From positions 1-64,000 of the forward strand of contig NZ_ATTE01000002.1 in NCBI RefSeq assembly GCF_000419525.1: DNA of 64,000 nt, in the 5' to 3' direction. The DNA comes from Leucothrix mucor DSM 2157. Its GTDB lineage: Bacteria > Pseudomonadota > Gammaproteobacteria > Thiotrichales > Thiotrichaceae. Below the pieces are notes generated by a model. That model was not told where the DNA came from, made no database searches, and saw nothing but the letters and a program-made list of their open reading frames with translations. Below, in pieces: positions 8,011 to 31,815 of the stretch; position 1 is the first letter of the stretch, and every line of letters starts with the position of its first letter. Made by a program: the position numbers and the translations under genes.

Positions 8011-8020
8011 CTCAACTCCC

Positions 8021-9466: not shown

Positions 9467-9479
9467 CTGTCGTTCTCCG

Positions 9480-10982: not shown

Positions 10983-10984
10983 GA

Positions 10985-13711: not shown

Positions 13712-13752
13712 CTTAGATACTTCCGATTACTTGACAAGGTGATAGTGGGCGA

Positions 13753-14184
13753 TTACCAGGCCGCATTCATTTCTCCCGGCAGAGCATATTGATTACGGTC
13801 ATATAACGGAAAGCAGCTGGTGTAACCCGGCACGGTTGCCTGCTCATTGGAGAGGTGCGGATAGACATACATACACATATCAGGGTTCGGCAGCCGTGGA
13901 AATATCCCGTTCAGCTCTTTTTGCTGAGAACGCGTATAGTCAACGTAATTAGTCAAACCGTTAGCAGGCGGCGCATTGACGGTCACTTTACGATATTCGG
14001 CCACCGGCGCAACACTGCTTTGATTGGCATGCGTTCTTAGAATATCTTTCATCGTTTGACCTTGCGGCATACTTGCCTGAGCAGGTTTCGGGCGTGGTGA
14101 AGACTCATCCGGAGCCTGAACGATAGTACAACCGCCCATTAGAATACTAGTCAGTAAAACTGTGTAGATTGTTTGTTGGCGCAT
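13753..14184 (-). CDS. Conjugative transfer region lipoprotein (TIGR03751, VirB7/TraV-like)
   Basis: About 143 residues. It starts at the ATG at 14184 with GGAGAG 6 bases upstream. The signal sequence ends in the lipobox LMGGC, so the mature protein is lipid-anchored at the Cys. Conserved-looking blocks include QTMKDILRTHANQ, DYTRSQQKELNGIFPRLPNPD and MCMYVYPHL. It overlaps the end of the TraB-like gene by 38 bases, a compact arrangement seen in this family. It likely stabilises the outer-membrane core complex, like VirB7/TraV. Confidence 0.85.
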   Translation of the reverse strand: MRQQTIYTVLLTSILMGGCTIVQAPDESSPRPKPAQASMPQGQTMKDILRTHANQSSVAPVAEYRKVTVNAPPANGLTNYVDYTRSQQKELNGIFPRLPNPDMCMYVYPHLSNEQATVPGYTSCFPLYDRNQYALPGEMNAAW

Positions 14185-15568: not shown

Positions 15569-15570
15569 AC

Positions 15571-16410
15571 TTAGCGCCCTACCCGAATCATGGGATGGCT
15601 TTGAACTGCGACCTTAAACGGCTGCTCCGAGATCAGAAACAAGGTGGTATTATCCCCTCGGGAACCTGCTGCGCTTAAGGCATTACGATGAAATAAGGCC
15701 GCTTTCCACACTCCCCTAATCTCCCGTGGATCCAACCTCAAGGGTTGGCGACTACGGTTGGATATCTCAACGGCAGTGACGTACAAGCCGCCTGCCCGCC
15801 AAGCGACCGCAGTGCGAGCATGGTAAGCATTGCCTGGCAATAAGTGCTGAACCGTTTGCTGTCCCGTGGGTACTTTGATAATACCAGTGCCTTTATCACG
15901 CAACCGCTCAGGTGCATAAACCTCTTTGGCAGCAAACTTCAGCAAGGAGGCATATCCTGCAATCGGAGACCGACTCCTTTTCTGTGCCCGGTCAACCGGT
16001 GTGTTACGTGGCATCGCAGGCTTAGCCGCCACAGCACCGTAGGGGTCAACACCATCTTTAATAACAATGCGAGTATTATTGGATCTGGCATTGCTGGACA
16101 CCACATCCAATAAATAGACTTTGCCACTTCCCTCTTCTCCTAAAGTAATCCGGATTCGCTTGAATGCCGCTTTGGCCGTCCAATACACGTTGTTACCGAC
16201 AATCTGGGTCTTTAGCTTATCTTTCACAAAGTTCGGAATATCCGCCCAGACCAGCTTGGCTCCCGGAAAGGTAATGCGCTGCTCCGCATGAGTGCTGAGT
16301 GACACGGCGATAGGGTCGCCTTTCCAAACGTACTGCTTTGGCGGTGTTTCTGAATGAGCAGTCCAACTGATGCACAGTAGAGTCAGCCCTATAAGTAGGT
16401 GTTTAAACAT
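15571..16410 (-). CDS. TraK/VirB9-like secretin-type component (TIGR03749)
   Basis: 279 residues; signal peptide (LLIGLTLLCISWTAHSETPP). An N-terminal beta domain contains PIAVSLSTHAEQRITFPGAK, and the C-terminal part has RLDPREIRGVWKAALFHRN. The 'PREIRG-W-AA-FHR' block is characteristic of PFL_4704/TIGR03749, the TraK/VirB9 equivalent of the outer-membrane core. It begins at the stop of the upstream TraE-like gene (shared base 16410) and ends 2 bases before the TraB-like start. Confidence 0.86.
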   Translation of the reverse strand: MFKHLLIGLTLLCISWTAHSETPPKQYVWKGDPIAVSLSTHAEQRITFPGAKLVWADIPNFVKDKLKTQIVGNNVYWTAKAAFKRIRITLGEEGSGKVYLLDVVSSNARSNNTRIVIKDGVDPYGAVAAKPAMPRNTPVDRAQKRSRSPIAGYASLLKFAAKEVYAPERLRDKGTGIIKVPTGQQTVQHLLPGNAYHARTAVAWRAGGLYVTAVEISNRSRQPLRLDPREIRGVWKAALFHRNALSAAGSRGDNTTLFLISEQPFKVAVQSHPMIRVGR

Positions 16411-17048
16411 TATTTTGTCTCCAGAGTTAATGGTTCAGGCTCCGCTGCATAGCCACCTAATACCAAGCCCCAAGGGTTGCGGTTTCGATCTACCTCGCGG
16501 CGGGTCACTATCATTGGATAGCGCAAAAACAATCGTTTCACTACTTCACCCCGATAGGTTTCCTGTAGCTCCATATCCAATGCCACGACCCAATCGGTGG
16601 CTAGTCCGTTAGACCGGCGACTGATGCTGACCCGGTCATAATCCCAGCTCACCAGTAACGGCTGTAATGCCCGTTCCCGGTTATTCAATTCACCCGCCTT
16701 TGCTCGGCGCTCAAAGTCCCTCAATAAAAACGCCTTGTATTGCGGGGTAAAAAAGTCACTGTATTGTTCTATGTTGTCCCGATAATCCTTTGCACCATTG
16801 AGGTTCCAGCGTTGTAAGGATTGGAAAATCCGGCTGGCAAAATCGTAGACGGCTGTTTTTGGAATTTCATCCGGCACTAATGAGGCACCCAAGGACAGAT
16901 CTGGTGGAATCGCGATACGAATGTCCTGACGTACATTATTGATGGTGTGTACCTGATACATAATGACCATAATTAAGGTGAATATAATGGTCCCGAACAC
17001 TCGGATTAAAGCGGTTTGGTTCTCACTGTGGTCATCAAAAAGATTCAT
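16410..17048 (-). CDS. TraE/VirB8-like component (TIGR03746)
   Basis: 212 residues with one N-terminal transmembrane segment (GTIIFTLIMVIMYQVH). The periplasmic NTF2-like domain contains YDFASRIFQSLQRWNLNGA, YSDFFTPQYKAFLLRD and LFLRYPMIVTRREVDRNRNP. PFL_4703/TIGR03746 proteins are the VirB8/TraE inner-membrane scaffold. It overlaps the TraL-like gene by 4 bases and abuts the TraK-like gene. No anomalies. Confidence 0.88.
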   Translation of the reverse strand: MNLFDDHSENQTALIRVFGTIIFTLIMVIMYQVHTINNVRQDIRIAIPPDLSLGASLVPDEIPKTAVYDFASRIFQSLQRWNLNGAKDYRDNIEQYSDFFTPQYKAFLLRDFERRAKAGELNNRERALQPLLVSWDYDRVSISRRSNGLATDWVVALDMELQETYRGEVVKRLFLRYPMIVTRREVDRNRNPWGLVLGGYAAEPEPLTLETK

Positions 17049-17395
17049 CGGCTAACCTTAAAGCTGGTGGTTTTATGGATAAAAGGAGCCACTTTGAACC
17101 CCAACCTTTCTACTTTGATGTAGCCTGCGTGGGTCAGATAATGATTTGGACGCTCACGCTTAATCGCTGCGATCATTAGCACTCCGACAATCAATACGCA
17201 CACTGTAGTCATCATGCCGAAGGCAATCCCTACAAAAAAAGATTGGAAGATCAATCCCATCACTAGTACCCCAAACAAGCCCAGCGGGATTGCCATGGCA
17301 ATAATCAAGTACAGCTCTGGAGCCGTCACTCCTCTGATAATGGCGGGATCACGATCAATCCGATTGGGGACCAGTGATGGAATCGAAGGCTTCAT
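17045..17395 (-). CDS. TraL/VirB3-like membrane protein (TIGR03750)
   Basis: 116 residues. The N-terminus SLVPNRIDRDPAIIRGVTAPE is followed by two transmembrane helices (LYLIIAMAIPLGLFGVLVMG and SFFVGIAFGMMTTVCVLIVG) and a basic C-terminus. The 'R-x-D-x-x-x-I-RG-T-E' opening marks TIGR03750. In the complex it partners the VirB4-type ATPase at the inner membrane. It starts 1 base after the preceding stop and overlaps the TraE-like gene by 4 bases. Confidence 0.87.
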   Translation of the reverse strand: MKPSIPSLVPNRIDRDPAIIRGVTAPELYLIIAMAIPLGLFGVLVMGLIFQSFFVGIAFGMMTTVCVLIVGVLMIAAIKRERPNHYLTHAGYIKVERLGFKVAPFIHKTTSFKVSR

Positions 17396-17803
17396 TTAGA
17401 AGTTATCGTTCAGAATCGCCAGACCCTGAGTCAGTAGATACATCACAAACACCGTGGCCAAAATTGCGATAAAGAACATCAACAAAACACTGCCTAAGGT
17501 GGCACCAGGCTTTCCTTGTCGCCAATCATTAATGGATCCTATAATCCAGAAGCTGGCGATCACGAAGGCAATAGCACCGGATCCGAAAATGATGTACTGC
17601 GCATATTTTTTGAAAAAACTAGCCGTGTTTGTCGCAATCTCTCCACCATCAGTACCCACGGTGGGTAAAGCCCCTGCGGCAGCCTGCACCTCCGTCCCTA
17701 ATAAGAAAGTACTGGCGAGGATGGTGAGCAGTAAGCCAAGTAACGACAATGGGCTAAATGACTGAAAAACCAGTCCTTGGTTTTTTTGGGTCGGGTTTAT
17801 CAT
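17396..17803 (-). CDS. Pilin-like conjugative membrane protein (TIGR03745)
   Basis: About 135 residues. Start ATG at 17803 with AGGAG 5 bases upstream; a longer frame to 17944 runs into the neighbour and has no ribosome site. The leader is hydrophobic (LSLLGLLLTILASTFLLG) with a likely processing site after VQAAAG. Two further transmembrane helices follow (YIIFGSGAIAFVIASFWIIG; LMFFIAILATVFVMYLL). This matches PFL_4702/TIGR03745, whose topology suggests the VirB2/TraA pilin equivalent; the pilin role is inference. Confidence 0.8.
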   Translation of the reverse strand: MINPTQKNQGLVFQSFSPLSLLGLLLTILASTFLLGTEVQAAAGALPTVGTDGGEIATNTASFFKKYAQYIIFGSGAIAFVIASFWIIGSINDWRQGKPGATLGSVLLMFFIAILATVFVMYLLTQGLAILNDNF

Positions 17804-17811
17804 AGACACTC

Positions 17812-18588
17812 CTAGTTTGAGATAAACGTGATAAAAATACTGGCTAGTGCCAGTGAACGAACGATGTAGATCAGGGATGAGGTCACCGAAAATTGATGCT
17901 CTCGTAAGCCACTCACTACAAAGAGAACTTGCCAACTTAGCCAAACCAGAATGATCACGATCAAGGCATATACCAGCCCTCGTCGGATGGCTGACGCCTG
18001 GATACCTACTGCGGCTTCAAACGAGGCCATCACGGTACTCAGTGATGGCGTATTGATTGGTTTGTACGACGTACCTGACGTACTTGCGGGCGTTGATGAA
18101 ACACTTTCAGGTAATCCGGATAAAGCCAGAGCGCCATAGCCAGACTCCTCCAGAAACCCGGAGATTCTTCGGATATACGTTACCGTCTCCTCAAAGGGTG
18201 GCACACCACCGTAACGCTGCACTCTGCCAGGCCCTGCGTTATAGGCCGCCAAAGCCAGAACGACATTGCCATCATTGGTTGCCAACTGCTGCGCCAAATA
18301 ACGTGTTCCACCCATAATGTTCTGACGAGGGTCTAAACGATCACTAACCCCCATATCACTTGCCGTATCCGGCATTAGCTGCATTAAACCTTGAGCCCCA
18401 ACAGCAGACTGCGCATTGGGATCAAATTGAGACTCTTGTCGAATCACCGACCGAATCAAACGCGAATCCACTCCATAGGCTTGCGAAGCTTCAGCAATAA
18501 AATCATCAAACTGATCATTGGCAACCGCTATCCCTTGCCACGCAAGTAGCAATAGCAACAACCCCATTGGTCCACAACGCAGCATCAA
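17812..18588 (-). CDS. Lytic transglycosylase fused to a TIGR03758-like membrane tail
   Basis: 258 residues. Signal peptide, then a lytic transglycosylase domain (RSVIRQESQFDPNAQSAV with the catalytic Glu near residue 52, GLMQLMPDTA, ALAAYNAGPGRVQRYGG). After a Ser/Thr linker (~165-185) there are two transmembrane helices (ALIVIILVWLSWQVLFVVSG; SLALASIFITFIS). In related operons the slot before the TIGR03745 gene is held by a short two-helix protein, TIGR03758/PFL_4701. Here those helices look fused to a muramidase, which would open the cell wall at the secretion channel. It overlaps the RAQPRD gene by 4 bases. Confidence 0.82.
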   Translation of the reverse strand: MMLRCGPMGLLLLLLAWQGIAVANDQFDDFIAEASQAYGVDSRLIRSVIRQESQFDPNAQSAVGAQGLMQLMPDTASDMGVSDRLDPRQNIMGGTRYLAQQLATNDGNVVLALAAYNAGPGRVQRYGGVPPFEETVTYIRRISGFLEESGYGALALSGLPESVSSTPASTSGTSYKPINTPSLSTVMASFEAAVGIQASAIRRGLVYALIVIILVWLSWQVLFVVSGLREHQFSVTSSLIYIVRSLALASIFITFISN

Positions 18589-19106
18589 TACTCACCAGAT
18601 CCTGAAGGAAAGCGTCTTGGTCTTTCGCCAGCACCGGCGATGGCAATACGAATGGCATCAACAACTGCACTTAAGTCACTGGCAATAAAATTAAAATCAA
18701 CTCGTCGATTAGTACCACTTTCAGACTCCATTGCTTCTAGGCGCAAGCAGTCATCATGTAGGCGGTTTAGTTCCTGAATCAGTAACAGCAAGAAACGGCT
18801 TTCCGTGCGCTTACCCGCATAACCGTATTGAACAAATAAAGCACGTGGCAGAAACGAGCCTTGCTCAGCCCCCTGCAATGCAGCTCTTAGCCCTTGCTTT
18901 ACGGTCACCAGATCTGCACGTAGATCCTGATACTCAAAGCGGAACCGTTCCTGACGATCTGCATTACGCTGCGCCTCATCTATGATCGTAAAGCTGGCCG
19001 TTAAATCATCTAGGATAGACTCCAGCGAGACCGGATAATCCGCAGCTGCAGCCGGCATCAGCAATACCCATAGCACTAGGCACTTTAGTCTGAACATCAT
19101 GATCAC
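18585..19106 (-). CDS. RAQPRD-family conjugative element protein
   Basis: 173 residues; signal peptide (LVLWVLLMPAAAADYP). A helical domain follows with AQRNADRQERFRFEYQDLRADLVTVKQGLRAAL, the pattern of the RAQPRD family (TIGR01690). A C-terminal part (residues ~85-170) is longer than the usual ~100-120 residues, which suggests an extension. It is a small periplasmic component of unknown detailed role in MPF_G transfer systems. It sits between the TIGR03747 and transglycosylase genes. Confidence 0.72.
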   Translation of the reverse strand: MIMMFRLKCLVLWVLLMPAAAADYPVSLESILDDLTASFTIIDEAQRNADRQERFRFEYQDLRADLVTVKQGLRAALQGAEQGSFLPRALFVQYGYAGKRTESRFLLLLIQELNRLHDDCLRLEAMESESGTNRRVDFNFIASDLSAVVDAIRIAIAGAGERPRRFPSGSGEY

Positions 19107-19107
19107 C

Positions 19108-19794
19108 TTATAAATACTTCTTGAACTTCAAACTGCTAAGCCAGACGGTTAGGCCAAAGCAGATTGCAAATGGCAGGATTACCCAATTCGGATGAATCGA
19201 AAACGGACTGGCCAGATAAATTACAAACGGCAAAATAAACATGGGCTTGATTAGCACCACTGCACGATTCCAAAAATAGGATGACTCTCTGTCTCCGCCG
19301 AATCGACGCAGATCCCGTTGTGATAAGCCGTCGATTAAACCAATCACCCCGAACACCAAAAAGACCGGGAATGAAAACACAATCACCACAAGGCGAACCG
19401 CAAATAAGTAAACCATGTTAGTTGTCGCTTCTAGGTATTGCTGATATCCGATGCCGACAGAAATGCCCTGTAAGACATCACTACCGGACCACACGAACAA
19501 CGCCTTATAGAACTGCTTGGCAAAGCCAACCGCTGCAGCAGCAGGCTGACCTACTACCCGCCCAAAGTCCTGATTCAACCAACCCAGTTCAAGACTTAAC
19601 ATCTGTGATGAATGCAAAGCACCGGATAAATCCCAGTAACGAAAAAAGATCCCACCCCACTCAATCGCCACATTGAATATCAAGGCGAAGATCAGCCATG
19701 CGGCGACATTCAGCACACGGTCAATACTCTTGGCGAGGATACCCTGAGGTTTATGCACTGTGCTCTGTTGTGTGGCATAAGCTGCTTGGTTCAT
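19108..19794 (-). CDS. Conjugative element membrane protein (TIGR03747)
   Basis: 228 residues with at least four transmembrane segments (VAAWLIFALIFNVAIEWGGI, LFAVRLVVIVFSFPVFLVFG, PMFILPFVIYLASPF, VILPFAICFGLTVWLSSL). The motif GLIDGLSQRDLRRFGGDRESSY is characteristic of PFL_4697/TIGR03747, which is always encoded next to TraD and probably assists the coupling protein. It overlaps traD by 4 bases. Confidence 0.88.
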   Translation of the reverse strand: MNQAAYATQQSTVHKPQGILAKSIDRVLNVAAWLIFALIFNVAIEWGGIFFRYWDLSGALHSSQMLSLELGWLNQDFGRVVGQPAAAAVGFAKQFYKALFVWSGSDVLQGISVGIGYQQYLEATTNMVYLFAVRLVVIVFSFPVFLVFGVIGLIDGLSQRDLRRFGGDRESSYFWNRAVVLIKPMFILPFVIYLASPFSIHPNWVILPFAICFGLTVWLSSLKFKKYL

Positions 19795-21833
19795 ACGTAT
19801 CCCTTGCCCGCTTCGCTGCGTTTAAACCAATCCTCAGGTGTGGTACTCAGGTAACGCTCTTTCATATCTTCCGCAATGGATTCCAGTGCATCAGGCAAGC
19901 TGTCATCGGTATGCGAGAATGGAATTCTGACCTTAAACAGGTTTCCTTCGGTAAATAAGAAGGCCTGCCCTTTAGGTAAGGCAATTAGCTCACTAGGGCT
20001 CAATAACGGCACATTCTCAGTCGTTATCCTGTCCTCATTCGTGGACGTGAAGTGCGTCTCTGTATCAACTTCTGAGCTGTCTCTGGCACTGGTGACCGTG
20101 GTTAACTGAGCGACCTGAACTTGTGGCAACTGCTCTGTTAGAAACTCAGCGGTCTCCTTATTCTTAACCCGCAATACCAACAAATTATTGAAGTTTCCGG
20201 CAATCTGTCTGGCCTTATCAGCATTGCCAATCCCCACCGTTAAGTCCGCACTGGTTTGGGTATAGGCGGTGATTTGCAAACCTGCACCACCGCCTTTGTT
20301 GGCCAGAGGAATAAACTGGTCACCCAGTAATTCTGCAAACTCATCTGCATGCAGACAAATACGACGGATTTTTGAATTGCCTTTATAAATTCCGCCTAAG
20401 GTAGCGGTCAGGTCACTGAACATTGAAGCACCCACAGCACCTCCGACCACCGAATCACTCAAACAGTCCAAGCCCACATAAACCACAGCTTCCTGCTCAA
20501 TGACTGACTTCCAGTCAAAGATTTCACGAGGGTCATCCAAGTCCAGATAATCAGGGGTTAACAACTCACTAGTCCGCCCCGTATTTAACTGCTCCAGCAA
20601 GGGCGTCATATTGGATACAATCTTATCGTAATAGCTTTTATCGGCCCGAAACGATGAGAGTAAACCATCAAAAATTGGATCTGATAACTCCTCATTCTTA
20701 TACAATTGCATTACCGCAATGGCTTCATTGTCCCGCCCACGAATCGCGGGAGGCAGCTGGTTATGGTTCACTGCCGCAGCGAGTGTCGCCAGCTTTTCAG
20801 AATAATCCTCAACCCGCTGACCTTTAAAGAAGGCATGACCGAACTCCACGAATAACTCATCCATGGATAAAATGTGCCGGTTGATACTCTGATAATCTGG
20901 AATGTATCCCAGGAACACCAACGCCTGCGCCACAATATTCACATACCGCCAACCAAACATCTTAAAGGCGGCAGAACTGCCCTCACCTGAGGCCCGGTCT
21001 GTAATCCTTGTTGGAACTTCAGTGATCCGACTAAAATTACCAATCGGGTTATAGCGGGCAGAGATGTCTGGATACCCCAAATGAAATACATAGCACTTTC
21101 GCTTAGCATCACATGCAGCCTGAAACGTGCTACGCATCAGATCAGCATCACCTTTCGGATCAAACACAATGGTGACATCACCACGCGCGATATCCTGCTT
21201 GATCAGAACCTCTGCGGTTCGAGTTTTACCAACCCGAGTGGTTCCTAAAACCAAGGTATGCCCGTTGCGCTCACCAAGATTCAACGTGACATTACTCTCA
21301 CCTTCATACATGCCAACCGCATGAATCTCAGGATGCCCACCAATACTTGGTACCGGACGAAATGGATTAAAGCGACTATTGGCCGACAACGGCGCTAACA
21401 ATCGACTGATGCAAAGGTTGTGCTCAAAGCGCAATTCACAGGCCCGTACAAACCGATAGCTTCGGGACTGCTCGGTATATCGTCGTCCCCCGTATAATGA
21501 GATATCGCGCATTCTCTGGACATGCCTTTGCTGCCACTCAAAGCCCTTACCCACGAACAACACCTTATTAGAGACCGGTATCTCCTTATTACTCATTTCA
21601 TAGTAAGGCAGGGCTCTAAGGTTCTTCTTATAACGTACGATTCGCCATCCCTGACGGGCACGGATGACTAGTAGGATACTCAACAATAGCAATGTCAGAT
21701 TCGCTACCGACGGCGTCATAAAGATAATCCCTGGAGCCCAGTACAGGAACACCATGAACAAGCCTGTAACCAGTACCGTATTAAATTCAATAGCCGGACG
21801 CAGCAAGGCCTCTATTTGATAAACCTTACTCAT
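19791..21833 (-). CDS. traD: Type IV coupling protein TraD (SXT/TOL subfamily)
   Basis: About 680 residues. Two N-terminal transmembrane helices (residues ~20-60) are followed by a P-loop domain: Walker A GTTRVGKT near 197-204, IVFDPKGDADL, and Walker B-like ICLHADEFAELL near 492-502. A QITAYTQTSADL segment is typical of the SXT/TOL TraD subfamily. It recruits the relaxase-DNA complex and pumps DNA to the secretion channel. The start at 21833 (MSKVYQIEALLRP) is chosen because the family begins this way; it overlaps the upstream transglycosylase gene by 8 bases. A longer start at 21863 is possible. Confidence 0.93.
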   Translation of the reverse strand: MSKVYQIEALLRPAIEFNTVLVTGLFMVFLYWAPGIIFMTPSVANLTLLLLSILLVIRARQGWRIVRYKKNLRALPYYEMSNKEIPVSNKVLFVGKGFEWQQRHVQRMRDISLYGGRRYTEQSRSYRFVRACELRFEHNLCISRLLAPLSANSRFNPFRPVPSIGGHPEIHAVGMYEGESNVTLNLGERNGHTLVLGTTRVGKTRTAEVLIKQDIARGDVTIVFDPKGDADLMRSTFQAACDAKRKCYVFHLGYPDISARYNPIGNFSRITEVPTRITDRASGEGSSAAFKMFGWRYVNIVAQALVFLGYIPDYQSINRHILSMDELFVEFGHAFFKGQRVEDYSEKLATLAAAVNHNQLPPAIRGRDNEAIAVMQLYKNEELSDPIFDGLLSSFRADKSYYDKIVSNMTPLLEQLNTGRTSELLTPDYLDLDDPREIFDWKSVIEQEAVVYVGLDCLSDSVVGGAVGASMFSDLTATLGGIYKGNSKIRRICLHADEFAELLGDQFIPLANKGGGAGLQITAYTQTSADLTVGIGNADKARQIAGNFNNLLVLRVKNKETAEFLTEQLPQVQVAQLTTVTSARDSSEVDTETHFTSTNEDRITTENVPLLSPSELIALPKGQAFLFTEGNLFKVRIPFSHTDDSLPDALESIAEDMKERYLSTTPEDWFKRSEAGKGYV

Positions 21834-22578
21834 CAGCCGTTGCCCGAATTCGGGTGTGCCCATTCATTGGGCCAACCTCAGACTGCAGAGTCACTGATCG
21901 GTAGCGGGTAACACCTGCCTGTGATTGAAAGACCTGAGGACTACGCGCAGAGGTTGTTTTTAACCTAGCAGATTGGCGAACCGGTTGGCTTGATGATCGC
22001 TGTTCTAGTGACGGACGCTGGCCATCGGTTGCCCGATTTACCGGCGTTTGTGACACCAATAAGGCAGCAAGGTCACGAATCTTTGGGACTGGAGACACTG
22101 ACGGTTTCGTTGTAACTGCCAAGCCCAATCTGGACTGTTTGTATTCTTTATAGAAACGCTTTACGCGTCTAACGTAATGCTGCGTTTCCCGATAAGGAGG
22201 TATCCCCTTATAGCGATCCACTTTACCTTCGCCTGCATTGTAGGCCGCTAATGCAAATTCGATATTCCCCTTATAGCGTTTCAGTAGCCACTTAATATAG
22301 CGAGTACCACCGCGGATATTCTGATCAGCAGAATACACATTGGTCACGCCAAAACGTTTGGCTGTAGCCGGAATCATTTGCATCAAGCCCTGAGCATTTG
22401 CCGTTGATACTGCTCTTAATTTGAAGTTTGACTCTTGACGAATCATCGCTTTGATCAATGAAAAATCCACACCATAGTGACGCGCATGTTTTTCAATTAA
22501 GTGGTCATAACGACTGGAATCTGCAAAAGCAGACTGTCCACAAAACAAGGCACATAGCATCAAAAATCGCATGCTCAT
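21826..22578 (-). CDS. Lytic transglycosylase, transfer-operon
   Basis: 250 residues. A signal peptide ends near CGQSAFADS. The SLT domain shows AMIRQESNFKLRAVSTANAQ with catalytic Glu, GLMQMIPATAKRF, GGTRYIKWLL and ALAAYNAGEGKVDRY. A basic Ser/Gln-rich C-terminal tail of ~90 residues follows. It is the VirB1-like muramidase position (PFL_4694) of the operon. The element thus encodes two transglycosylases, the other being at 17812. It overlaps genes on both sides. Confidence 0.92.
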   Translation of the reverse strand: MSMRFLMLCALFCGQSAFADSSRYDHLIEKHARHYGVDFSLIKAMIRQESNFKLRAVSTANAQGLMQMIPATAKRFGVTNVYSADQNIRGGTRYIKWLLKRYKGNIEFALAAYNAGEGKVDRYKGIPPYRETQHYVRRVKRFYKEYKQSRLGLAVTTKPSVSPVPKIRDLAALLVSQTPVNRATDGQRPSLEQRSSSQPVRQSARLKTTSARSPQVFQSQAGVTRYRSVTLQSEVGPMNGHTRIRATADE

Positions 22579-23264
22579 CGCTCAACCATATAAGGTAACT
22601 TAGTGATACCCCGACTCAGGGATAAACCATTATCAAGATTAAGCGTTATCTGTTTACTGCTCACTCTTGCGGGTGAGATGTTCATTGACACGGCCCACTT
22701 TTTAATCGTCTTCGCCGTTGCACCGACAAAGTAAATATTGACGGTGACACCTGCCTCAATGAGTGCCGAGAGCTTGGGCTCACAGACCTTGCAAGGCAGC
22801 TTTAAAAAGAAATCAACGGTCTGAGTACTCTTCGCCTCACCGTAGCCACCGGCAGGTGCCGGGCCTTGACGGTACAATGGTATATCTCCGAACAGCTGTG
22901 ATTGCGCTGCCTGATAAGCTGCTTCAAATGCCAGCTCCTGTTCAACTCGCTGGCGCTCGATCTTTACCAGCTTACGGGCATAATACTCTCGCTCTGATAC
23001 CGTCTTTGCATGAATGCCTAACACGGTAATTGGATCCAAGTCAGGACTCCATAGTCCGCGCGGGCCTTGCATGAGGGTTTGGTAGTCCATCCAGTCTTTG
23101 GGTAATAAGTCCCAACTTTTAGCCTGACTGATTGCTGCCTGACTTAGAGTAGATTCACTAAACTGAGTGGTATCCGGCACTTTCTCCTTGGCCGTTAACA
23201 ACACTGGATTAGCGAACAACGGCATTAGTAAAACACCGGCTAATATGGCATATCGGCGGCGCAT
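22575..23264 (-). CDS. Conjugative element protein (TIGR03759)
   Basis: About 229 residues. The ATG at 23264 overlaps the stop of the lipoprotein gene (TGATG). Signal peptide (AILAGVLLMPLFANPVLL), then SWDLLPKDWMDYQTLMQGPR, DLDPITVLGIHAKTVSEREY and a C-terminal thioredoxin-like-looking portion with FFLKLPCKVCEP (CxxC variant) and VNIYFVGATAKTIKKWA. These blocks match PFL_4693/TIGR03759. It is a periplasmic protein required in this class of transfer systems; its exact role is not known. Confidence 0.88.
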   Translation of the reverse strand: MRRRYAILAGVLLMPLFANPVLLTAKEKVPDTTQFSESTLSQAAISQAKSWDLLPKDWMDYQTLMQGPRGLWSPDLDPITVLGIHAKTVSEREYYARKLVKIERQRVEQELAFEAAYQAAQSQLFGDIPLYRQGPAPAGGYGEAKSTQTVDFFLKLPCKVCEPKLSALIEAGVTVNIYFVGATAKTIKKWAVSMNISPARVSSKQITLNLDNGLSLSRGITKLPYMVER

Positions 23265-23638
23265 CAGTAAGCTCGCTTTGGCATGCAATACACCACTTTG
23301 GAGTTAGGCCTGGATAAGTCTCTAATGATATAGCGACATAGTGCTTTTGATGGTGTGGCAACCTTAATAGCAGAGCGCTGCCTGCTTGCGTATTTTGGTT
23401 TGGGTGGCAATCTGTTCGCTAGGACAGCGCGAACGGGTACCGCCGTCGTGCTTGCCTTGGCGACGGCCAACACAGGCCTTAGTCGCTCGTTCTCAACTTG
23501 CTTACGCTGCTTGCTCATAGTTGGCAGCACAATTTTAACAAGCGAACGATTCTCCCCTAACATTGGGCTAGATACCGAGCATCCAGCGATGATAATCACG
23601 GACAGGCTGAGTAAGCAGAGGTGTCGTTTGGTAATCAT
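23264..23638 (-). CDS. Small lipoprotein of the transfer operon
   Basis: 124 residues with a signal ending in the lipobox IIIAGC, so it is predicted to be lipid-anchored. The mature part is short and very basic (KSKQ-, RQRSAIKVAT, KPKYASRQ). It ends with a Cys-containing RYIIRDLSRPNSKVVYCMPK. I do not recognise a family. It starts at the last base of the PilL-like gene and its stop overlaps the next ATG, so it is clearly part of the operon. Confidence 0.7.
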   Translation of the reverse strand: MITKRHLCLLSLSVIIIAGCSVSSPMLGENRSLVKIVLPTMSKQRKQVENERLRPVLAVAKASTTAVPVRAVLANRLPPKPKYASRQRSAIKVATPSKALCRYIIRDLSRPNSKVVYCMPKRAY

Positions 23639-24360
23639 TAGCGTAGCTCCTGTGGGATCATATCCAGCGTTAAAACGGTGCCTTTATTCAGTACAGATGA
23701 ATTGATCTCACCAAGTACTGTGCTCAAGCCTTGCTTATAGCTGGCAACCTGTTTCCGGCTACTGTGAGGTTTTGCAGCTCGTTGAATTACAGGCACCATC
23801 GGAGCCTTACGCACAACGGGTATGGTTCTACTTGCTGCCGCTTTAACTGCTGGTTTGATCCGCGCTGCTCTGACCTGATGTGAGGCACGGCTTACGGATA
23901 CAGGGACAGATACCAGCGGGGCTTTATAACTCAGTGGCAATTGGAAAGTGATCAGTCGATTAATTGGATCAACAGCTAATATCCACGGCTCCCCAGACAG
24001 GGTCTCCAAGGCACTTTCTAAACTCATCGGTCCCATCGTTCTGTGCACGTCAGGTAGAGGCAAACCGAATAGCTGATGGACTCGTCTATCCGGATGGTAT
24101 TTGGCAATCTGATACCCTGAATCTTTAAGCAAAGACTCGACAGCATTAAAGACAGTTTTCACATGTGGACTAAAGACAATTTTTGGAATCACTGACTGCA
24201 ATGGATTGCGTTGTGCCATTGATGCCCCAGGGCTCAATGTCACATAGCGCGATACACGCATGGCATCTTGAGATGAATCACCCTTGGGTGAGGCAGCCAG
24301 TTCATGACTACTTAAAAAGAGAAGTGACATGACACTGACCATTAATTTTAGCTTGCTCAT
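23638..24360 (-). CDS. PilL N-terminal-domain protein, first gene of the transfer operon
   Basis: About 240 residues. Start ATG 24360, with GAGGG 7 bases upstream. After a signal peptide it has RYVTLSPGASMAQRNPLQSV, VESLLKDSGYQIAKYHPDRR, LFGLPLPDVHRTMGPMSLES and LSGEPWILAVDPINRLITFQ. This is the PilL N-terminal domain (TIGR03748 type), which in these elements belongs to the conjugative pilus region; the larger PilL C-terminus is replaced here by a basic Ala/Ser-rich tail. It opens the long minus-strand operon ending at 6441. Confidence 0.85.
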   Translation of the reverse strand: MSKLKLMVSVMSLLFLSSHELAASPKGDSSQDAMRVSRYVTLSPGASMAQRNPLQSVIPKIVFSPHVKTVFNAVESLLKDSGYQIAKYHPDRRVHQLFGLPLPDVHRTMGPMSLESALETLSGEPWILAVDPINRLITFQLPLSYKAPLVSVPVSVSRASHQVRAARIKPAVKAAASRTIPVVRKAPMVPVIQRAAKPHSSRKQVASYKQGLSTVLGEINSSVLNKGTVLTLDMIPQELR

Positions 24361-24770
24361 ATGGCACCCTCGCACCTCGATTAACTAAAACTATTAGAGC
24401 ATGGACGCTACTGAATGAACTGCCTTATAAGAATCACAAGCCTGTCACTTTAAACGGCAAAGAAAGTACGGATTGCCAGTCAGCAAAGTGATGTTTGAGC
24501 ACCACTAGGTGATACCAAAGGTATTAAAAAATTGGTAACTGGTTGCTTGTAGACTCAGGGTTAAGAGTGGTCATCGACAGCGACTTTTAGGTCATGCTGA
24601 TAAAATGAAAGTGTGTTTTTGTTTTAAATAATTTTTATTAGAATTCGACTGTGAACACAGCACTATATAACTTGTGGTTAACGACAGCCCTCACGAAGCG
24701 TGACCGTTCAATTTGGCCATTTGACTTCATTGGCTTGAGAGCTGAGAAGAAATAGATCATGAATAGGGTT
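24361..24770. promoter_or_regulatory. Promoter region of the transfer operon
   Basis: 410 bp between the TIGR03761 gene and the PilL-like gene, both on the minus strand. It is AT-rich, with a poly-T/A stretch near 24610-24650, and has no gene. As the only long gap before the operon, it most likely holds the main transfer promoter. I see no clear operator. Confidence 0.45.
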
Positions 24771-25409
24771 CTATTTACCAGAGGGAGAATAGGCCGGAAC
24801 TAGCTGCCCAGTGAGGATCGCTTTAGGCACTATCCCCATTTGCTTCATAGCAGCCTTCGCAACATCCGTCTGTAGCTGCAGTTGCTCACGATTTAGAGCA
24901 TGGGAATGGTATAGCATCGCTTCACTAAACAAGGCCAGCAAGCCTTGGTTTAGTGTTGCAATCTGGGTATGCATCTGACTGTCTGTCATCAACCCCACCC
25001 TATTCACTTGCATGGCCATCAAACAAAAATCATCAAATTGCTTTATTTGTCTGGCAGCTTGCCAGCTGTAAGGTGTTTTCAGATTCAAATCGACCGACAT
25101 AGGCCGGTCTGGCTCAAAGGGCTGGAATGGAACTACATCCTTTGTATTCATTAACGTCTGCACCGTTTGCTGGCACTGTTCCAACAACAACTGAATACTC
25201 TGTTGCCTATCCGTTAACCGAACCAACCACCACAAGGCATAAGGATTCCCCAAAGCAGCATCATCCCAAATAATGCGAGCTAAACTCGCAAACTGGAAAA
25301 GGCCATAGATCGGCCGCAAACCGAACTCAGCATCACCGGGCCGCCCCTGCAGCATACGCTTTGCCTGAAATGTGAGTAGCTCCAATTTTGCGGCCTTAGG
25401 GCTATTCAT
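24771..25409 (-). CDS. Conjugative element protein (TIGR03761, PFL_4669 type)
   Basis: 212 residues, soluble. The N-terminal LELLTFQAKRMLQGRPGDAE, the IYGLFQFASLARIIWDDAAL block and NPYALWWLVRLTDRQQSI match PFL_4669/TIGR03761. These proteins are encoded beside the DUF2857 protein near the relaxase and replication side of ICEs; their function is unknown. It overlaps the DUF2857 gene by 8 bases. Confidence 0.85.
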   Translation of the reverse strand: MNSPKAAKLELLTFQAKRMLQGRPGDAEFGLRPIYGLFQFASLARIIWDDAALGNPYALWWLVRLTDRQQSIQLLLEQCQQTVQTLMNTKDVVPFQPFEPDRPMSVDLNLKTPYSWQAARQIKQFDDFCLMAMQVNRVGLMTDSQMHTQIATLNQGLLALFSEAMLYHSHALNREQLQLQTDVAKAAMKQMGIVPKAILTGQLVPAYSPSGK

Positions 25410-25971
25410 CAGTACTTATTTCGTCATATGTGAATCGACTCCACAAGGTCAGAATTTCTCTGATCGTCAGGTTGTACTCATTGGCTAGTCGCAAGCATCT
25501 TTCAGGAGAAGACATGAGGCATATATCTTCATTAAACAGGCGATCAAAGTCTGTTAATAGACGTTTATGCTGATCACTATGCTGCTCAACTTCCGGTATT
25601 TTCCAGCGCCCAATGGGTGCCCTTTCCATACCATGACGCTCACGAATAACCATGTATTCTTTACCACTCAAGCCATACTCTTTCGTTAGCATTTTACGTG
25701 GTGCATCGTTGAGAACTAGCTGATCAATCAGATCCGCAAGTTTTACCTCCTGATCTGCATAACTAATGAGGTTCTCTAGTTTGGAGGCATTCACTGTGAT
25801 ATCAAAAAAGGGACTACTGCAAACGCTACGAACTGCTCTGGCATCCATTTTTGAAAGTCTGTTTGCCAGCGTATGATCGACACCTAAACGTTCTAATTTT
25901 TCTAATTGACCATCCAAGCTGTATTGCTGGATCTCCGTTACTAATTGCAAGGCTAGAGATGATTTAAGCAT
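25402..25971 (-). CDS. DUF2857-family protein
   Basis: 189 residues. The motifs LEKLERLGVDHTLANRLSKM, DAPRKMLTKEYGLSGKEYMV and RLANEYNLTIREILTLWSRF have helix-turn-helix character and match DUF2857 proteins of ICE/SPI-7-like elements. It is co-transcribed with the TIGR03761 gene. It may bind DNA or regulate transfer, but this is inference. Confidence 0.8.
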   Translation of the reverse strand: MLKSSLALQLVTEIQQYSLDGQLEKLERLGVDHTLANRLSKMDARAVRSVCSSPFFDITVNASKLENLISYADQEVKLADLIDQLVLNDAPRKMLTKEYGLSGKEYMVIRERHGMERAPIGRWKIPEVEQHSDQHKRLLTDFDRLFNEDICLMSSPERCLRLANEYNLTIREILTLWSRFTYDEISTDE

Positions 25972-26205: not shown

Positions 26206-27330
26206 TTACAAAATAACCAACTCATCATTGACAAACATACCGTCTATCAACTCATCATTAGAATCAAACCGAAAGCCTTCCAGAGTACGTCCATACGCTT
26301 CGTAACGTACTGTCAGGCAATGATCCTGCACCAGTAGTTTAATATCGGCAAGTGACTCATCAGAGCACCCCGTCAGCTTTTGATAACGAGAGTACAGTGT
26401 CGGAGTCACTGCAAATAGGCCTTTCTCGACCACATGAATTAATGAGTTGGAGGTGTTCATTACTAGCGTACCTTGCTCAATTTGTTCATAGATCCAATCA
26501 AAGAATGGCTCCTTGGCAATGCTATCAAAGACCTGACTTTGGGTCTCAGGCGCTAAACTTTTTACCTTCACATCATTACTCTTAGACGCAGGATCTACCA
26601 CTTCTGTTTGCACAACCAGAGACGGGCAGCAAGTCGCCAACTGCATAAACTTAACTACATACCGACACAACGCGTGATGGCCACTGATCCCTGCTGACCA
26701 TTCACTGATCACGGTATTGTCAACTGCGAGCCAAGTTAAGGTCTCTGGTGTTATCCAACGGTTCCCCAGAATATTAGCGCTAGCGATCGCATAACTAGAG
26801 TCATTAGAGTGCGCTGATTTAAACCTAAAATACCCCACATCTCCAAGTCCTGAGTGCATAGCATCCCAACGCTTAAAACTATGGCCGTTGTGGCTTATCT
26901 CAATTAGACAGTCATTCAGACTGTCCCTAATCGTTGCCATGACAGCTACTGAGAAAATAACAAAGGACCACTGGTTACGCTGCGCATCAACCAGATCAGT
27001 CCGGGTACCTGGTGGTAATACCAGTCCACGTCGTAACTTTAAGGCATTGATGCCCGCGAGTAGGCAGAGGTCAGCCAACCCATACGGCCGACAATAACGC
27101 TTATATTTGACCGCCGGTATACATTGCAATGTATGGAGAAGGCTTTTAATAAATTCTTGGAAGTGATGGTCAAATGAAATCCGGTCCATTGATAGCAAAC
27201 CAAACACCGTATCAATTGTAGGTTGATACTGAGTCAGTAACTCTTCAACCGGCAATGGCTGGTTTAAGCCCTCAATAACCGGATTGGAAACATCTATTGT
27301 TTGTCGTTTGAAGGAGGGGAAGAGTTTCAT
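26206..27330 (-). CDS. traI: TraI_2-like (MOB_H) relaxase homologue with degenerate active site
   Basis: About 374 residues. The start at 27330 is chosen because GGA lies ~8 bases before the ATG, and the upstream ATG at 27357 has none. The N-terminal half matches TraI_2/MOB_H relaxases: INALKLRRGLVLPPGTR, a W-x-F-V segment and ANILGNRWITPETLTWLAVD. The C-terminal half resembles TraI_2_C: FFDWIYEQIEQGTLVMNTSN, VVEKGLFAVTPTLYSRYQ. In the family the first part carries a HH pair, GGLLxH and an HD motif that bind metal. Here the matching stretches read YKRYCRPYGLADLCL and VAVMATIRDSLND, so all these ligands are replaced. It may be an inactive partner, or relaxase activity may lie elsewhere. Confidence 0.75.
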   Translation of the reverse strand: MKLFPSFKRQTIDVSNPVIEGLNQPLPVEELLTQYQPTIDTVFGLLSMDRISFDHHFQEFIKSLLHTLQCIPAVKYKRYCRPYGLADLCLLAGINALKLRRGLVLPPGTRTDLVDAQRNQWSFVIFSVAVMATIRDSLNDCLIEISHNGHSFKRWDAMHSGLGDVGYFRFKSAHSNDSSYAIASANILGNRWITPETLTWLAVDNTVISEWSAGISGHHALCRYVVKFMQLATCCPSLVVQTEVVDPASKSNDVKVKSLAPETQSQVFDSIAKEPFFDWIYEQIEQGTLVMNTSNSLIHVVEKGLFAVTPTLYSRYQKLTGCSDESLADIKLLVQDHCLTVRYEAYGRTLEGFRFDSNDELIDGMFVNDELVIL

Positions 27331-27392: not shown

Positions 27393-27462
27393 AATCTTCT
27401 AGTGTGTATCCTAGCGGGTGAATTTTTCGCGTAGCGAAAAAGAGGGGCGGTAATGAGCCCCT
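27393..27462. repeat. 70-bp structured repeat, copy A
   Basis: Nearly identical to 29750-29818. It contains TTTTTCGC-gta-GCGAAAAA (stem 8 bp) and GGGGC...GCCCC. Read on the minus strand the second stem is followed by CTCTTTTT, so it could be the terminator of the integrase gene. The loop of the first hairpin differs between copies while the stem is kept. Confidence 0.7.
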
Positions 27463-27543: not shown

Positions 27544-28428
27544 CTAGCTACCTAGATAAATTGAGGTAACTTGTTCCCGACTATGACCAAGTTCCTCGCT
27601 GATTTGCAAGCGTATGTTACGATCCACTGTCCGCTGCTCTTCATCCATATCCCTCTGACGTATCCCTCCTAAGGCCGGACACTCATTTCCTGAGAGCTCC
27701 TTATACCGCACTTGCGCGTAGTTATGCCTTAATCCGTGCCCCTTCCCTAAGCCAATTGTTGGCACCACATTTTTGTAAAGATTCAATTGATCTTTGTACA
27801 TCAGCTGAGGAGGGATCAGGGAGTTATTTCCATACTCTCGCTTCAAGCGATCGATCAGATTTTGTTGTGCATCGTTGGTAATGGGTACTTCCCTGCCTCG
27901 ACTTCCCTTACACCAACTGGGCTTTAATTTGATTGCTGCCCCAAGATCGGCATAACCTGGGTTGAACTTGATCGCTTCTTCACGTCGCAATCCGAACAAT
28001 GATTGCAACTGAAGGCTATCACGCAAATTTTTATCCGAAACTTCTGCAAGATGACTGTCTTTAAGCACAACGGCTTTACTATCATTTGTAATATAGACGC
28101 GATGTTCTATATTCAGTGCATCATTTGATGGAATCTTATGGCTAGCATTTACTTTGGTCGCCCACCATCGGATGTGTGACATTCGATTTTTAATCGTACC
28201 TGTAGCTAGTTCATCAGCTTTCCATTTTTCGACGAGCCGTTCTACGTGCTTAGCCTTTAATCCTTTTACGGATAGCTGATTAAAACCAAGTGTTTTTAGC
28301 TGCCGTGAAGCCAACGATAGCGTCTCTTGACGACTTTTTTGGGTAGAAAATCCGCCATCTCGATTATGCTTTTGTAATTCTCGCAACTGCCAATCTAAAC
28401 TGTTCAAATTTAATACCCTTGCTTGCAT
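27544..28428 (-). CDS. Tyrosine recombinase / integrase
   Basis: 294 residues. It has an N-terminal SAM-like DNA-binding region (TIKNRMSHIRWWATKVNASH) and a catalytic domain: Arg in SLFGLRREEAIKFNPG (~148/149), HGLRH (His231-Arg234), GHSREQVTSIY (His282, Tyr291). This resembles the Phage_int_SAM/Integrase_1 family found on ICEs and islands, and could act on att or resolve multimers. The C-terminus ends three residues after the Tyr. It is flanked by the paired 70-bp repeats at 27393 and 29750. Confidence 0.88.
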   Translation of the reverse strand: MQARVLNLNSLDWQLRELQKHNRDGGFSTQKSRQETLSLASRQLKTLGFNQLSVKGLKAKHVERLVEKWKADELATGTIKNRMSHIRWWATKVNASHKIPSNDALNIEHRVYITNDSKAVVLKDSHLAEVSDKNLRDSLQLQSLFGLRREEAIKFNPGYADLGAAIKLKPSWCKGSRGREVPITNDAQQNLIDRLKREYGNNSLIPPQLMYKDQLNLYKNVVPTIGLGKGHGLRHNYAQVRYKELSGNECPALGGIRQRDMDEEQRTVDRNIRLQISEELGHSREQVTSIYLGS

Positions 28429-29079: not shown

Positions 29080-29749
29080 AAGCCCTTTCGGGTGAAGTGA
29101 GAGTTGAGATAAGCCCTAAAAAGGTCAGTTGTAAGCATGACGACTTGCCGTCACCTTACGCCAGTGTATCTAAAGTTAGTGTCTGATATTTCTCCTGTTG
29201 GATTGAAAATAGGTTCGGTGCTGTTGCACACCCCCCTCGGTTGAATGTAACGATTTGTCTACGGTTGAACTATGCCCTGAGGCACTTTGATTGAATCTAT
29301 GCACCATTGTGCATTTTGGCTTTCGCCTGAAAGTGCATGAAATAAAGGTTTCCCCTTATCCGACTTGTCTTCCTCATGCTTTCAAGCCTTGTCTGATCAA
29401 TAGTTGTGAACAACTATTGACCTGAATTTTGTCTGTATATTTTGCAATGCCAGTCCATCACTGGCCTGTCACTGCAAAATATACATCAGAAGCCCAAGGT
29501 AAGCAACGTAAGTTGCATACGTCACTGTCTAGTTAACTATCTAGTGACGTATGCAAAGCAAAGTCAAACCCGCAAAACCATCGCCCGCACCAGGCTCCTG
29601 TTTTAAGCACCACGGTGCTAGTTTTCAATTGCATCATAAGGTCACTTCAATCACATCAGTAAGTAACGTGTTTAAGCCTGATGCTTAAAGCAGCGATCAA
29701 ACCCCACCTAAGCAATTAATTATCGCCAATATAGCGATAATCAAAGGCT
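29080..29749. other. Structured non-coding region with three long hairpins
   Basis: No gene is seen in 670 bp. Inverted repeats are TCAATAGTTGT/ACAACTATTGA (29397-29420), TGTATATTTTGCA (29434-29446)/TGCAAAATATACA (29473-29485) with an inner GCCAGT/ACTGGC, and TTGCATACGTCACT (29513-29526)/AGTGACGTATGCAA (29543-29556). The last overlaps a small GCAAC/GTTGC hairpin. This could be a recombination or single-strand origin signal, an oriT or an RNA locus; the sequence does not decide. Confidence 0.5.
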
Positions 29750-29818
29750 AATCTTCTAGTTTGTATCCTAGCGGGTGAATTTTTCGCTTGCGAAAAAGAG
29801 GGGCGGCGATGAGCCCCT
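29750..29818. repeat. 70-bp structured repeat, copy B
   Basis: Copy of 27393-27462 with a different hairpin loop (TTTTTCGC-tt-GCGAAAAA) and the same orientation. Together the copies bracket the integrase gene and the 66-residue gene, about 2.3 kb apart. Confidence 0.7.
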
Positions 29819-30150: not shown

Positions 30151-30195
30151 AGCTATTTTTAAGTGGCTGAAACATAAGTATAAAAATGATTTCGC

Positions 30196-30742
30196 GCGAG
30201 TTCGATTACCCACTTCCGCGAGTTACTTTACCCACTTAGGTAAAAACGCGAGTTAGATTACCCACTAGTGCGAGTTCGATTACCCACTTTTTTTGCAAAG
30301 TGCGAGTTAGATTACCCACTAGTGCGAGTTCGATTACCCACTTTTCCTTTCAAAAAGTGGCTTACCCTGTGGATAAGTCGATTTTGACGACGATGTATGT
30401 GAGTAATAATAAAGCAGTGCGAGTTAGATTACCCACTTCCGCGAGTTCAATTACCCACTTCCGCGAGTTAGATTACCCACTTTGGACGGAACCTCAGTCA
30501 TTGAGAGGATTGTTTTAAAGTAAATTTAGTGATTTATTTTAAGTAACGTAATTTGGAATTAGCGTATTACTTGTTGTCTCTTTTTCGGCTCTCATACAAT
30601 CATCTACAGACAAAGTGCGAGTTCGATTACCCACTTTTCTACCGATTATCGACGAACTGCAACCAATGGTTCAGTGTCCGCTGGTTCAGAACCAAATAGT
30701 GAATAATCCGATTTAACAAAGTGCGAGTTGCATTACCCACTT
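30196..30742. repeat. oriV: eleven iterons
   Basis: Eleven near-copies of about 20 bp, consensus GCGAGTTNGATTACCCACTT (variants TTCG, TTAG, TTCA, TTAC, TTGC after the GAG). Nine lie in a cluster (30196 to ~30482), followed by single copies near 30617 and 30723-30742. Cluster members differ mainly in the base after GCGAGTT. An AT-rich block (about 30500-30580) separates the cluster from the two distal copies. The array lies directly 3' of the replication initiator, the usual layout of an iteron-controlled plasmid origin. Confidence 0.92.
30368..30376 (+). promoter_or_regulatory. DnaA box in oriV
   Basis: TGTGGATAA is the consensus DnaA box (reverse TTATCCACA). It sits between iterons 6 and 7, as expected for a host-DnaA-assisted plasmid origin. 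Confidence 0.7.
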
Positions 30743-30765
30743 AAAGCGTCATTGTGCATATTCTT

Positions 30766-31815
30766 TTAGCCAGTTATTCGTTGTAAGTCCTTAGAACGTC
30801 GATTAGCAGCTTTCACAAACGCAATGAATGCCGCTGAAGCTGTAATTGTAAACTCAAGGTCCACAATCTTGGCTCCCTGCTTGAGTTGTTTTTCCTGTAT
30901 GGGTAAGAAGTCTCCCTTGTCATCAGGGATCACTGCATTGTTGCCGGTATTATCCTTTAATCCTCTCAGCTCCTCTAAGCACAAGCGGATTTCCTTGTAT
31001 GCATCACGTTCACGAGTATACGTAAGCCGGCATGCTTGAATGATTTGACTGGCTCTGATTCTAAACGGCGGCGCATCATACCCCGCATTGCGGTAGTTAC
31101 TGACTAATAGCTTATAGATCCACCGTGTGACGCTACGCTTGCTAGACATGTACAGAAGATAGTTCATCTGACGGAACTCTAGCTTATCGATACTATCGGT
31201 AATCAAGGTGTTGAATCTGGCCGCACAGACACTCTTACCCGTCTCCAAATACTCTTCGCGGTCAGTGAAGAGTCGTTCGGTTAGGATCGAGCCCTCAAAC
31301 GCCTTCTTTCGTCCCTGACTGACTTTTATCTTGCAGCCAATCATAATATCTAAAGACTCTTTCAGTGCCTTTATCGACATTCCATGGCCCATACGAGACA
31401 GTTCATTCTGGACCTGCTTCAATGTGAAGCGTACCCAGGTCTCTTTTCCAGGGACATGTACTGAACCGCCCTCCTCCAAGAAGATCCGGCGTAAGGCTTG
31501 CTCAACAATCTCTTCACGCTCAGAGGGGTAATACTCCACCCGCTGACCGTCTACCGGTATAATCGCAGGGGTAATCTCAATCGCATGGCTGTAACCATTT
31601 ACGTGAAACTCATGCTCCGTGATCGGAAGGTTGGGGCTGATCTTGCGCATTTTGATCTGCTCTCTGCGGGAAATGGCATACACCCCATAGAAATCCCAGG
31701 CATTAAACAGATTGGTTGACTGATCGGCGTCTTTTCCATAGAAATTACGGAATATCTCAAGCTGTTGAGAATCAACTTGTTCCGTAAGACCCTCTTCGTT
31801 TTCCTGATTGCTCAT
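30766..31815 (-). CDS. Iteron-binding plasmid replication initiator
   Basis: 349 residues. The fold looks like a two-winged-helix initiator of the Rep_3/TrfA type: AALRRIFLEE-type helix, WVRFTLKQVQNELSRMG, SIKALKESLDIMIGCKIKVS, and YLLYMSSKRSVTRWIYKLLV followed by ITASAAFIAFVKAANRR. I do not place it in a specific Inc group. It ends 24 bp from the last iteron and reads away from the leader of ardC. The family binds iterons to open the origin and controls copy number by handcuffing. Confidence 0.75.
   Translation of the reverse strand: MSNQENEEGLTEQVDSQQLEIFRNFYGKDADQSTNLFNAWDFYGVYAISRREQIKMRKISPNLPITEHEFHVNGYSHAIEITPAIIPVDGQRVEYYPSEREEIVEQALRRIFLEEGGSVHVPGKETWVRFTLKQVQNELSRMGHGMSIKALKESLDIMIGCKIKVSQGRKKAFEGSILTERLFTDREEYLETGKSVCAARFNTLITDSIDKLEFRQMNYLLYMSSKRSVTRWIYKLLVSNYRNAGYDAPPFRIRASQIIQACRLTYTRERDAYKEIRLCLEELRGLKDNTGNNAVIPDDKGDFLPIQEKQLKQGAKIVDLEFTITASAAFIAFVKAANRRSKDLQRITG

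Follow-up and report, generated by a model that had tools for sequence, protein, structure and literature searches.

A protein encoded in the relaxase position of a Leucothrix mucor plasmid with a GI-type type IV secretion system (T4SS) has almost certainly lost the catalytic site of its family, and we give an even chance to the proposal that DNA cleavage was taken over by the PF12834-PF12835 tyrosine recombinase encoded beside it. On sequence grounds, the gene for this protein, TraI, is a true MOB_H relaxase descendant that lost metal binding and hence DNA cleavage. The DNA analysed (the window, 64,000 nucleotides) makes up the first 64 kb of a contig of 89,037 bp in a genome of 5.19 Mb. A umuC frame runs unbroken over the contig ends, and the contig is therefore a circular plasmid, 25 kb of which lie beyond the window. 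Its gene content includes ParA-like genes, a RepA-like gene accompanied by eleven iterons, and a GI-type (PFGI-1/MPF_G) T4SS that looks complete. Feature coordinates are collected in the table.

The first-pass annotation had described TraI as a full-length TraI_2/TraI_2_C homologue without metal ligands, and both parts of that description stand. Each Pfam domain exceeds its curated cut-off (TraI_2, 6.9e-8, residues 34-226, 32.2 bits against 23.9; TraI_2_C, 9.1e-8, residues 283-328, 32.6 bits against 27.3), and matches to TIGR03760 (87.9 of 161.4 bits) and to the NCBIfam MobH model NF041494 (74.8 of 200 bits) fall below theirs. The open reading frame (ORF) has no internal stop and extends to a TTG at 27357 (383 amino acids), the ATG at 27330 being residue 10. 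Aligned with intact relaxases, TraI keeps the Q-x-x-P-A anchor, LPPGT, the tryptophan residues and TraI_2_C. All metal ligands are substituted (HHH by KRY, GGxxxH by L and HD by AT), and HHHxxxGGxxxH of the 3H motif reads KRYCRPYGLADL. Intact relatives show PASExHHHxxxGGxxxHxL (3H motif as defined in PMC4036041), then ALLHDxGK and then a further downstream His; at these places TraI has PAVKYKRYCRPYGLADLCL, VAVMATIRD and Ala, with VMATIRD standing for the (L/V)xHDxGK consensus. Both motifs are reported as necessary for cleavage in the sole characterised MOB_H enzyme (PMC12857230), and catalysis by the usual route would therefore be excluded for TraI. A shifted motif, which the earlier annotation had named as the finding that would overturn it, was rejected, as the QxxPA anchor directly precedes the site and the alignment runs on without a break. 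An HH pair at about residues 64-65 was likewise rejected as a displaced motif, lying upstream of the anchor.

Structure modelling, also proposed at that stage, predicted an HD-like (relaxase) fold followed by TraI_2_C. The AlphaFold2 model was built from a 37-row alignment (36 relatives), with a mean pLDDT (predicted local distance difference test) of 75 and a core above 90. The closest solved fold is 3kq5 from Coxiella (Z 17.6), followed by 2ipq, the C-terminal domain of STY4665 (Z 8.6); HD enzymes such as YhaM and Rel match at Z 7-8, a range where a shared arrangement alone could produce the score.

A second relaxase outside the window, one of the explanations offered earlier, did not emerge. 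TraI is the sole TraI_2 copy in the genome, the rest of the plasmid included, and no Relaxase (PF03432), TrwC or MobA_MobL protein was detected there in a search that did not extend to Mob_Pre, MOB_C and Rep_trans. Among the comparison records examined, Relaxase (PF03432) and MobA_MobL were likewise absent, TrwC (MOB_F) was present only on a Serratia hybrid plasmid, and each element examined carried a single TraI_2 gene.

Beyond what the first reading had noticed, the ligand loss is common to many elements. Plasmids of Methylophaga pinxianii and M. thalassica with a related T4SS and RepA encode TraI proteins of 406-408 amino acids with GEYAKKGG and ALLRDFGG, and TraI of Halioglobus pRR3-57 is more eroded, with the entire 3H loop gone and mainly the C-terminal domain left. 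The loss also spans a large Enterobacterales clade that includes SGI-4, whose gene is listed by its authors as a traI relaxase and whose excision and transfer, at up to about 1e-4 per donor, have been demonstrated (PMC6543542). A scan of genomes with the enterobacterial form of TraI yielded 73 loci; its patterns were derived from ligand-less proteins and are uninformative on the frequency of intact copies. HD was missing from all 68 readable enterobacterial loci, some of which (L133, L135) retain HH and GGxxxH, and the two non-enterobacterial loci were intact; the frames of L077 and L127 were unreadable and L140 breaks off ahead of the HD site. G045, G057, G060 and G061 were taken to be intact on the basis of length and match rather than a reading of their motifs. 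Truncation is seen in some Xenorhabdus copies. A further ligand-less TraI occurs in genome G196 (L173, 4095-6122, minus strand), adjoining a probable PFL_4669/AcaB-like gene, and the end of a window-type recombinase lies on another contig of that genome (L178, 1336-1707, minus strand).

The enterobacterial ligand-less proteins form one clade (support 100) beside an intact Pseudomonas/Haemophilus group (99 together), those of Methylophaga are placed elsewhere, and the window TraI pairs with an intact protein of its own bacterial family (81, weak). Taken together, the ligand-less proteins were not recovered as a single group, and several independent losses therefore seem likely. The first-pass annotation had suspected selection for a non-catalytic role and suggested dN/dS (the ratio of nonsynonymous to synonymous substitution rates) in related elements as a check. 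For the relatives this was supported: dead N-domains give dN/dS of 0.07-0.24, against 0.08-0.12 in intact pairs, and the dead domain is under purifying selection in the enterobacterial clade. The window copy itself yielded no value. We are confident, if short of certain, that function has been retained in the wider ligand-less group.

Short solitary TraI_2 homologues were also seen in the chromosomes of Legionella/Coxiella-like genomes, beside rsmA/apaH, lnt or other housekeeping genes and with most ligands lost (L014/L157 in G086:C193, L016/L169 in G125:C171, L017 in G066:C5, L156 in G263:C71, L165 in G286 and L171 in G103; PDB 3kq5). They look like a domesticated relaxase and, as a separate clade, were excluded from the comparison.

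The earlier suggestion that TraI is the partner of a relaxase, or part of a new mechanism, is now favoured, and its likely partner lies inside the window at 27544-28428, where a recombinase had been left unlinked to it. The recombinase ORF is 186 bp upstream of the TraI ORF. Its R-K-HxxRH-H-Y set is complete (GLR146ff, CKGSRGR, HGLRH, LGH, SIY) and the protein stops three residues past the Tyr; in the family members compared, no more than about ten residues follow it, unlike in the integrases compared. A PF12835 recombinase was present in all eight records checked first, and in 10 of 11 ligand-less TraI records against 1 of 13 with intact MobH, that one a weak hit (Fisher p 9e-5). In Halioglobus it is located inside the tra region. 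The recombinases of Methylophaga and of SGI-4-type elements are more distant from the window type.

About 1 kb upstream of the window recombinase, three hairpins occupy 165 bp (fold z = -8.0, equalled by no shuffle). We read 24 loci with a window-type recombinase: 19 from Legionella, one each from the window, Halioglobus and a Shewanella plasmid, and two from small plasmids of 4-5 kb. Each has the core palindrome GTCACT...AGTGAC at a distance of 445-1092 bp upstream of its recombinase or recombinase pair. The outer stem pairs of the palindrome vary by lineage with pairing kept, and in Gallibacterium there is a paired change within the core. A single exact version turned up in the 1.34 Mb of enterobacterial control loci and none in the 0.30 Mb of flanking Legionella DNA. 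Being present in all window-type loci and rare in controls, the site therefore goes with the recombinase gene. Its sequence fits either an origin of transfer (oriT) or a recombination site, and the oriT role is putative. A 70-bp direct repeat (93% identical; 27393-27462 and 29750-29818), which contains two small hairpins, brackets both the three hairpins and the recombinase gene.

Window-type recombinases (1e-38 to 1e-54) also occur in a family taken as Legionellaceae from its gene content, where PF12835 was found in 28 of 77 genomes. At the 20 Legionella places read, they are nearly always a tandem pair; ten of these places have a GI-type T4SS TraD gene no more than about 12 kb away, and no TraI was detected around the recombinases. 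Wee et al. could not identify a relaxase in Legionella GI-T4SS islands, found tandem integrases near 13 of 14 clusters, and reported that one island, LpcGI-2, transfers (PMC3864950).

A takeover of cleavage by the recombinase is favoured because the TraI motifs are lost, no classical relaxase accompanies them (Serratia MOB_F excepted), SGI-4 nevertheless transfers and the recombinase co-occurs; because the palindrome is conserved upstream, recombinase pairs stand beside TraD in Legionella and the Halioglobus gene lies inside the tra region; and because TcpM, MpsA and MobK provide precedents. In the mechanism we propose, the recombinase would nick the palindromic origin at about 29392-29556. 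TraI would be kept as a non-catalytic relaxosome component made of an HD-like scaffold and TraI_2_C, the latter binding DNA and/or the coupling protein, such that TraI would bridge DNA, coupling protein or helicase, and TraD and the GI-type T4SS would export the DNA. For this plasmid we infer recombinase nicking, the palindrome as oriT and TraI as adaptor. More broadly, and with slightly less than even confidence, GI-type plasmids and integrative and conjugative elements (ICEs) may have repeatedly exchanged the MOB_H nickase for a PF12834-PF12835 recombinase, one branch using the GTCACT...AGTGAC hairpin, with TraI becoming an adaptor or, as in Legionella, being lost; there the two recombinases would fill the place of the missing relaxase.

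Several observations weigh against these proposals. The branch leading to the window protein is very long, and for want of a close relative the selection on this copy is unmeasurable. At the genome level, PF12835 was found in 38 of 41 ligand-less and 3 of 29 intact-MobH genomes, an association confounded by taxonomy, as the ligand-less genomes are nearly all Enterobacterales and the controls include none. Of the Legionella recombinase pairs, about half are more than 10 kb from any T4SS gene, and the GTCACT palindrome was not found in the Methylophaga and SGI-4-type recombinase loci searched; in some of the latter (Klebsiella michiganensis, Serratia) another hairpin lies about 40 bp upstream. 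The window recombinase retains a core-binding (SAM-like) domain (PF12834 Phage_int_SAM_2, 4.8e-15), which TcpM, MpsA and MobK are said to lack. Finally, the window type is commonly carried by small plasmids, and for these dimer resolution offers a simple alternative.

The last two points lead to the rival that survives best, although we think it unlikely. TraI would again be a dead adaptor, the nickase would be another protein, encoded on the element and belonging to a family not yet recognised, or would come from the host or a co-resident element, and PF12835 would be a resolution or integration recombinase with the palindrome as its site. The core-binding domain of ordinary recombinases fits this, as do window-type genes on plasmids of 4-15 kb that are mostly typed as non-mobilizable and otherwise carry just a rep gene and small ORFs. 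It leaves unexplained why the recombinase is found where TraI is dead or missing and hardly ever with intact MobH, and why it is positioned beside TraI or TraD in the tra region. Window-type recombinases appear in 185 plasmid records, many of them small plasmids of this kind, such as those of Acinetobacter ursingii (L247, 5.5 kb) and Gallibacterium anatis (L248, 4.4 kb), and these may be mobilizable by an unrecognised system. On Shewanella baltica pSBP2_mcr4 (L181, 9636-12861) a window-type recombinase and the palindrome lie just downstream of the mcr-4.3 gene.

It is improbable that the plasmid is simply losing conjugation, with TraI decaying and the T4SS to follow. The very long branch of TraI, for which a peptide-pattern search found no close relatives in genomes or viral contigs, and the truncated Xenorhabdus copies speak for decay, but the window frame is open with both domains and no stop, its T4SS genes exceed the profile cut-offs, the dead domain is under purifying selection in relatives and one such element transfers. 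Least probable is a ligand-less TraI that still nicks through a metal-independent or rebuilt active site: TraI is conserved and still in the relaxase position, and ICESb1 traI, whose motif state was not read, is marked with the double asterisk also given to traD, traB and traC in a table (PMC3864950) that has 'essential for conjugation' in its key, but no alternative polar active-site set is common to the window, Methylophaga and Enterobacterales copies, Halioglobus deleted the whole loop, and the one MOB_H enzyme studied is reported to require both 3H and HD.

If the takeover by the recombinase is true, it would define a new relaxase family and, to our knowledge, the first dead relaxase kept in a relaxosome. 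It would account for the transfer of SGI-4-like ICEs and Legionella GI-T4SS islands, bearing on an open question about both, and would bear on the mobility of the many small plasmids that have this recombinase. The system is also a natural experiment in which the cleavage and adaptor roles of a relaxase are separated. Plasmid typing and ICE finders score a TraI_2 match as a relaxase, and there is a whole class of such matches, a transferable Salmonella metal-resistance ICE included, with none of the residues known to be necessary for cutting. MOB-suite types many of these elements as non-mobilizable despite a full T4SS. In the literature searched, with partial coverage, we did not find a ligand-less MOB_H class, its co-occurrence with PF12835 or the shared palindrome described.

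Features of the Leucothrix mucor window discussed in the text
Feature	Position	Strand	Basis or remark
Ligand-less TraI_2/TraI_2_C protein (TraI), 374 amino acids from ATG	26206..27330	-	Pfam/NCBIfam matches, alignment, structure model
3H motif site, residues 78-100	27058..27126	-	QCIPAVKYKRYCRPYGLADLCLL where QxxPASExHHHxxxGGxxxHxL expected; alignment
HD motif site, residues 137-149	26911..26949	-	VAVMATIRDSLND where ALLHDxGK expected; alignment
PF12834-PF12835 tyrosine recombinase, 294 amino acids, proposed nickase	27544..28428	-	Profile match, catalytic set read
Palindrome, 22-bp arms, core GTCACT...AGTGAC; proposed oriT or recombinase site	29513..29556	.	
Second hairpin: inverted repeat, 24-bp arms, 4-nt loop	29434..29485	.	
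Third hairpin: inverted repeat, 16-bp arms, 2-nt loop	29392..29425	.	
GI-type (MPF_G) T4SS gene cluster	6441..24375	-	TraG_N, TraU, TraC, TIGR03752, TraD, SLT, TIGR03759, others; profile matches
TraD coupling protein	19791..21863	-	TIGR03754, 804 bits
PFL_4669/AcaB family protein	24771..25409	-	Profile match
DUF2857 protein	25402..25971	-	Profile match
RepA-like replication initiator	30766..31815	-	tblastn to plasmid replication proteins
Eleven iterons (GCGAGTTNGATTACCCACTT), presumed replication origin (oriV)	30193..30745	.	

The genes run in the order recombinase, TraI, DUF2857, PFL_4669/AcaB and then the T4SS, and the mobH locus of Vibrio pVS127 shows the identical order of TraI, a hypothetical gene and PFL_4669. 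Membership of the GI-type (MPF_G) class is indicated by PFGI-1-type TraC/VirB4 (TIGR03744, 834 bits), TraD, TraU, TraG_N and TIGR037xx genes (TIGR03752 and TIGR03759 among them), all of which are present. Elsewhere the window encodes an AbiE-type toxin-antitoxin pair (2307-4053) and a 2141-amino-acid surface-type protein with GEVED/SdrD-B domains (53830-60255). Between parA-like genes lies an array of short repeats in which a low-complexity ORF, repetitive in LYSYIPIQLHTYTVAY units, occupies two overlapping frames (37092-37467, minus strand). Beyond the window, the plasmid carries a BREX-like defence system with BrxC, a methylase, PglZ and BrxL (65295-79165) and an operon encoding a Prok-E2/ThiF/JAB fusion protein and two other partners, possibly a ubiquitin-like defence system (79466-83677, minus strand).

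Compared with known systems, TraI resembles the MOB_H relaxases (TraI/MobH of pUM505, ICEhin1056, GGI, SXT/R391 and IncA/C) in its TraI_2 and TraI_2_C domains, fold and position in a GI-type transfer region, but differs in lacking the 3H motif, HD and the third His, in its short linker and in scoring below the MobH equivalog cut-off. The chromosomal Legionella/Coxiella-like homologues (3kq5) share the short TraI_2/TraI_2_C arrangement, provide the closest solved fold and have also lost ligands in those read, but they stand alone beside rsmA/apaH or housekeeping genes, off conjugative elements, and form their own clade (support 100). SGI-4 and the SGI-4-like/SPI-7-type ICEs and plasmids of Enterobacterales have ligand loss at the same TraI locus, a PF12835 recombinase and a GI-type T4SS; there the recombinase is of another PF12835 subfamily and several kb from traI, a UvrD helicase gene is next to traI, and the GTCACT palindrome is absent. 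Legionella islands (LGI) share the GI-type T4SS, the window-type recombinase, the upstream palindrome and the lack of a classical relaxase, but are chromosomal and have a tandem recombinase pair beside TraD and no TraI.

Tyrosine-recombinase relaxases and MOB_H relaxases are each already known separately. The former include TcpM (pCW3, MOB_M), MpsA (SGI1) and MobK (pIGRK), whose oriT lies upstream of their genes; compared by description, they share with the window recombinase the catalytic domain class, and MpsA also has its Tyr near the C-terminus; the inverted repeats upstream of the window gene would correspond to their oriT. Only the window system keeps a dead TraI partner. In SGI1, MpsA is essential and the helper TraI is dispensable yet boosts transfer by three logs or more (PMC6414798), a precedent for a division of labour between a recombinase and TraI.
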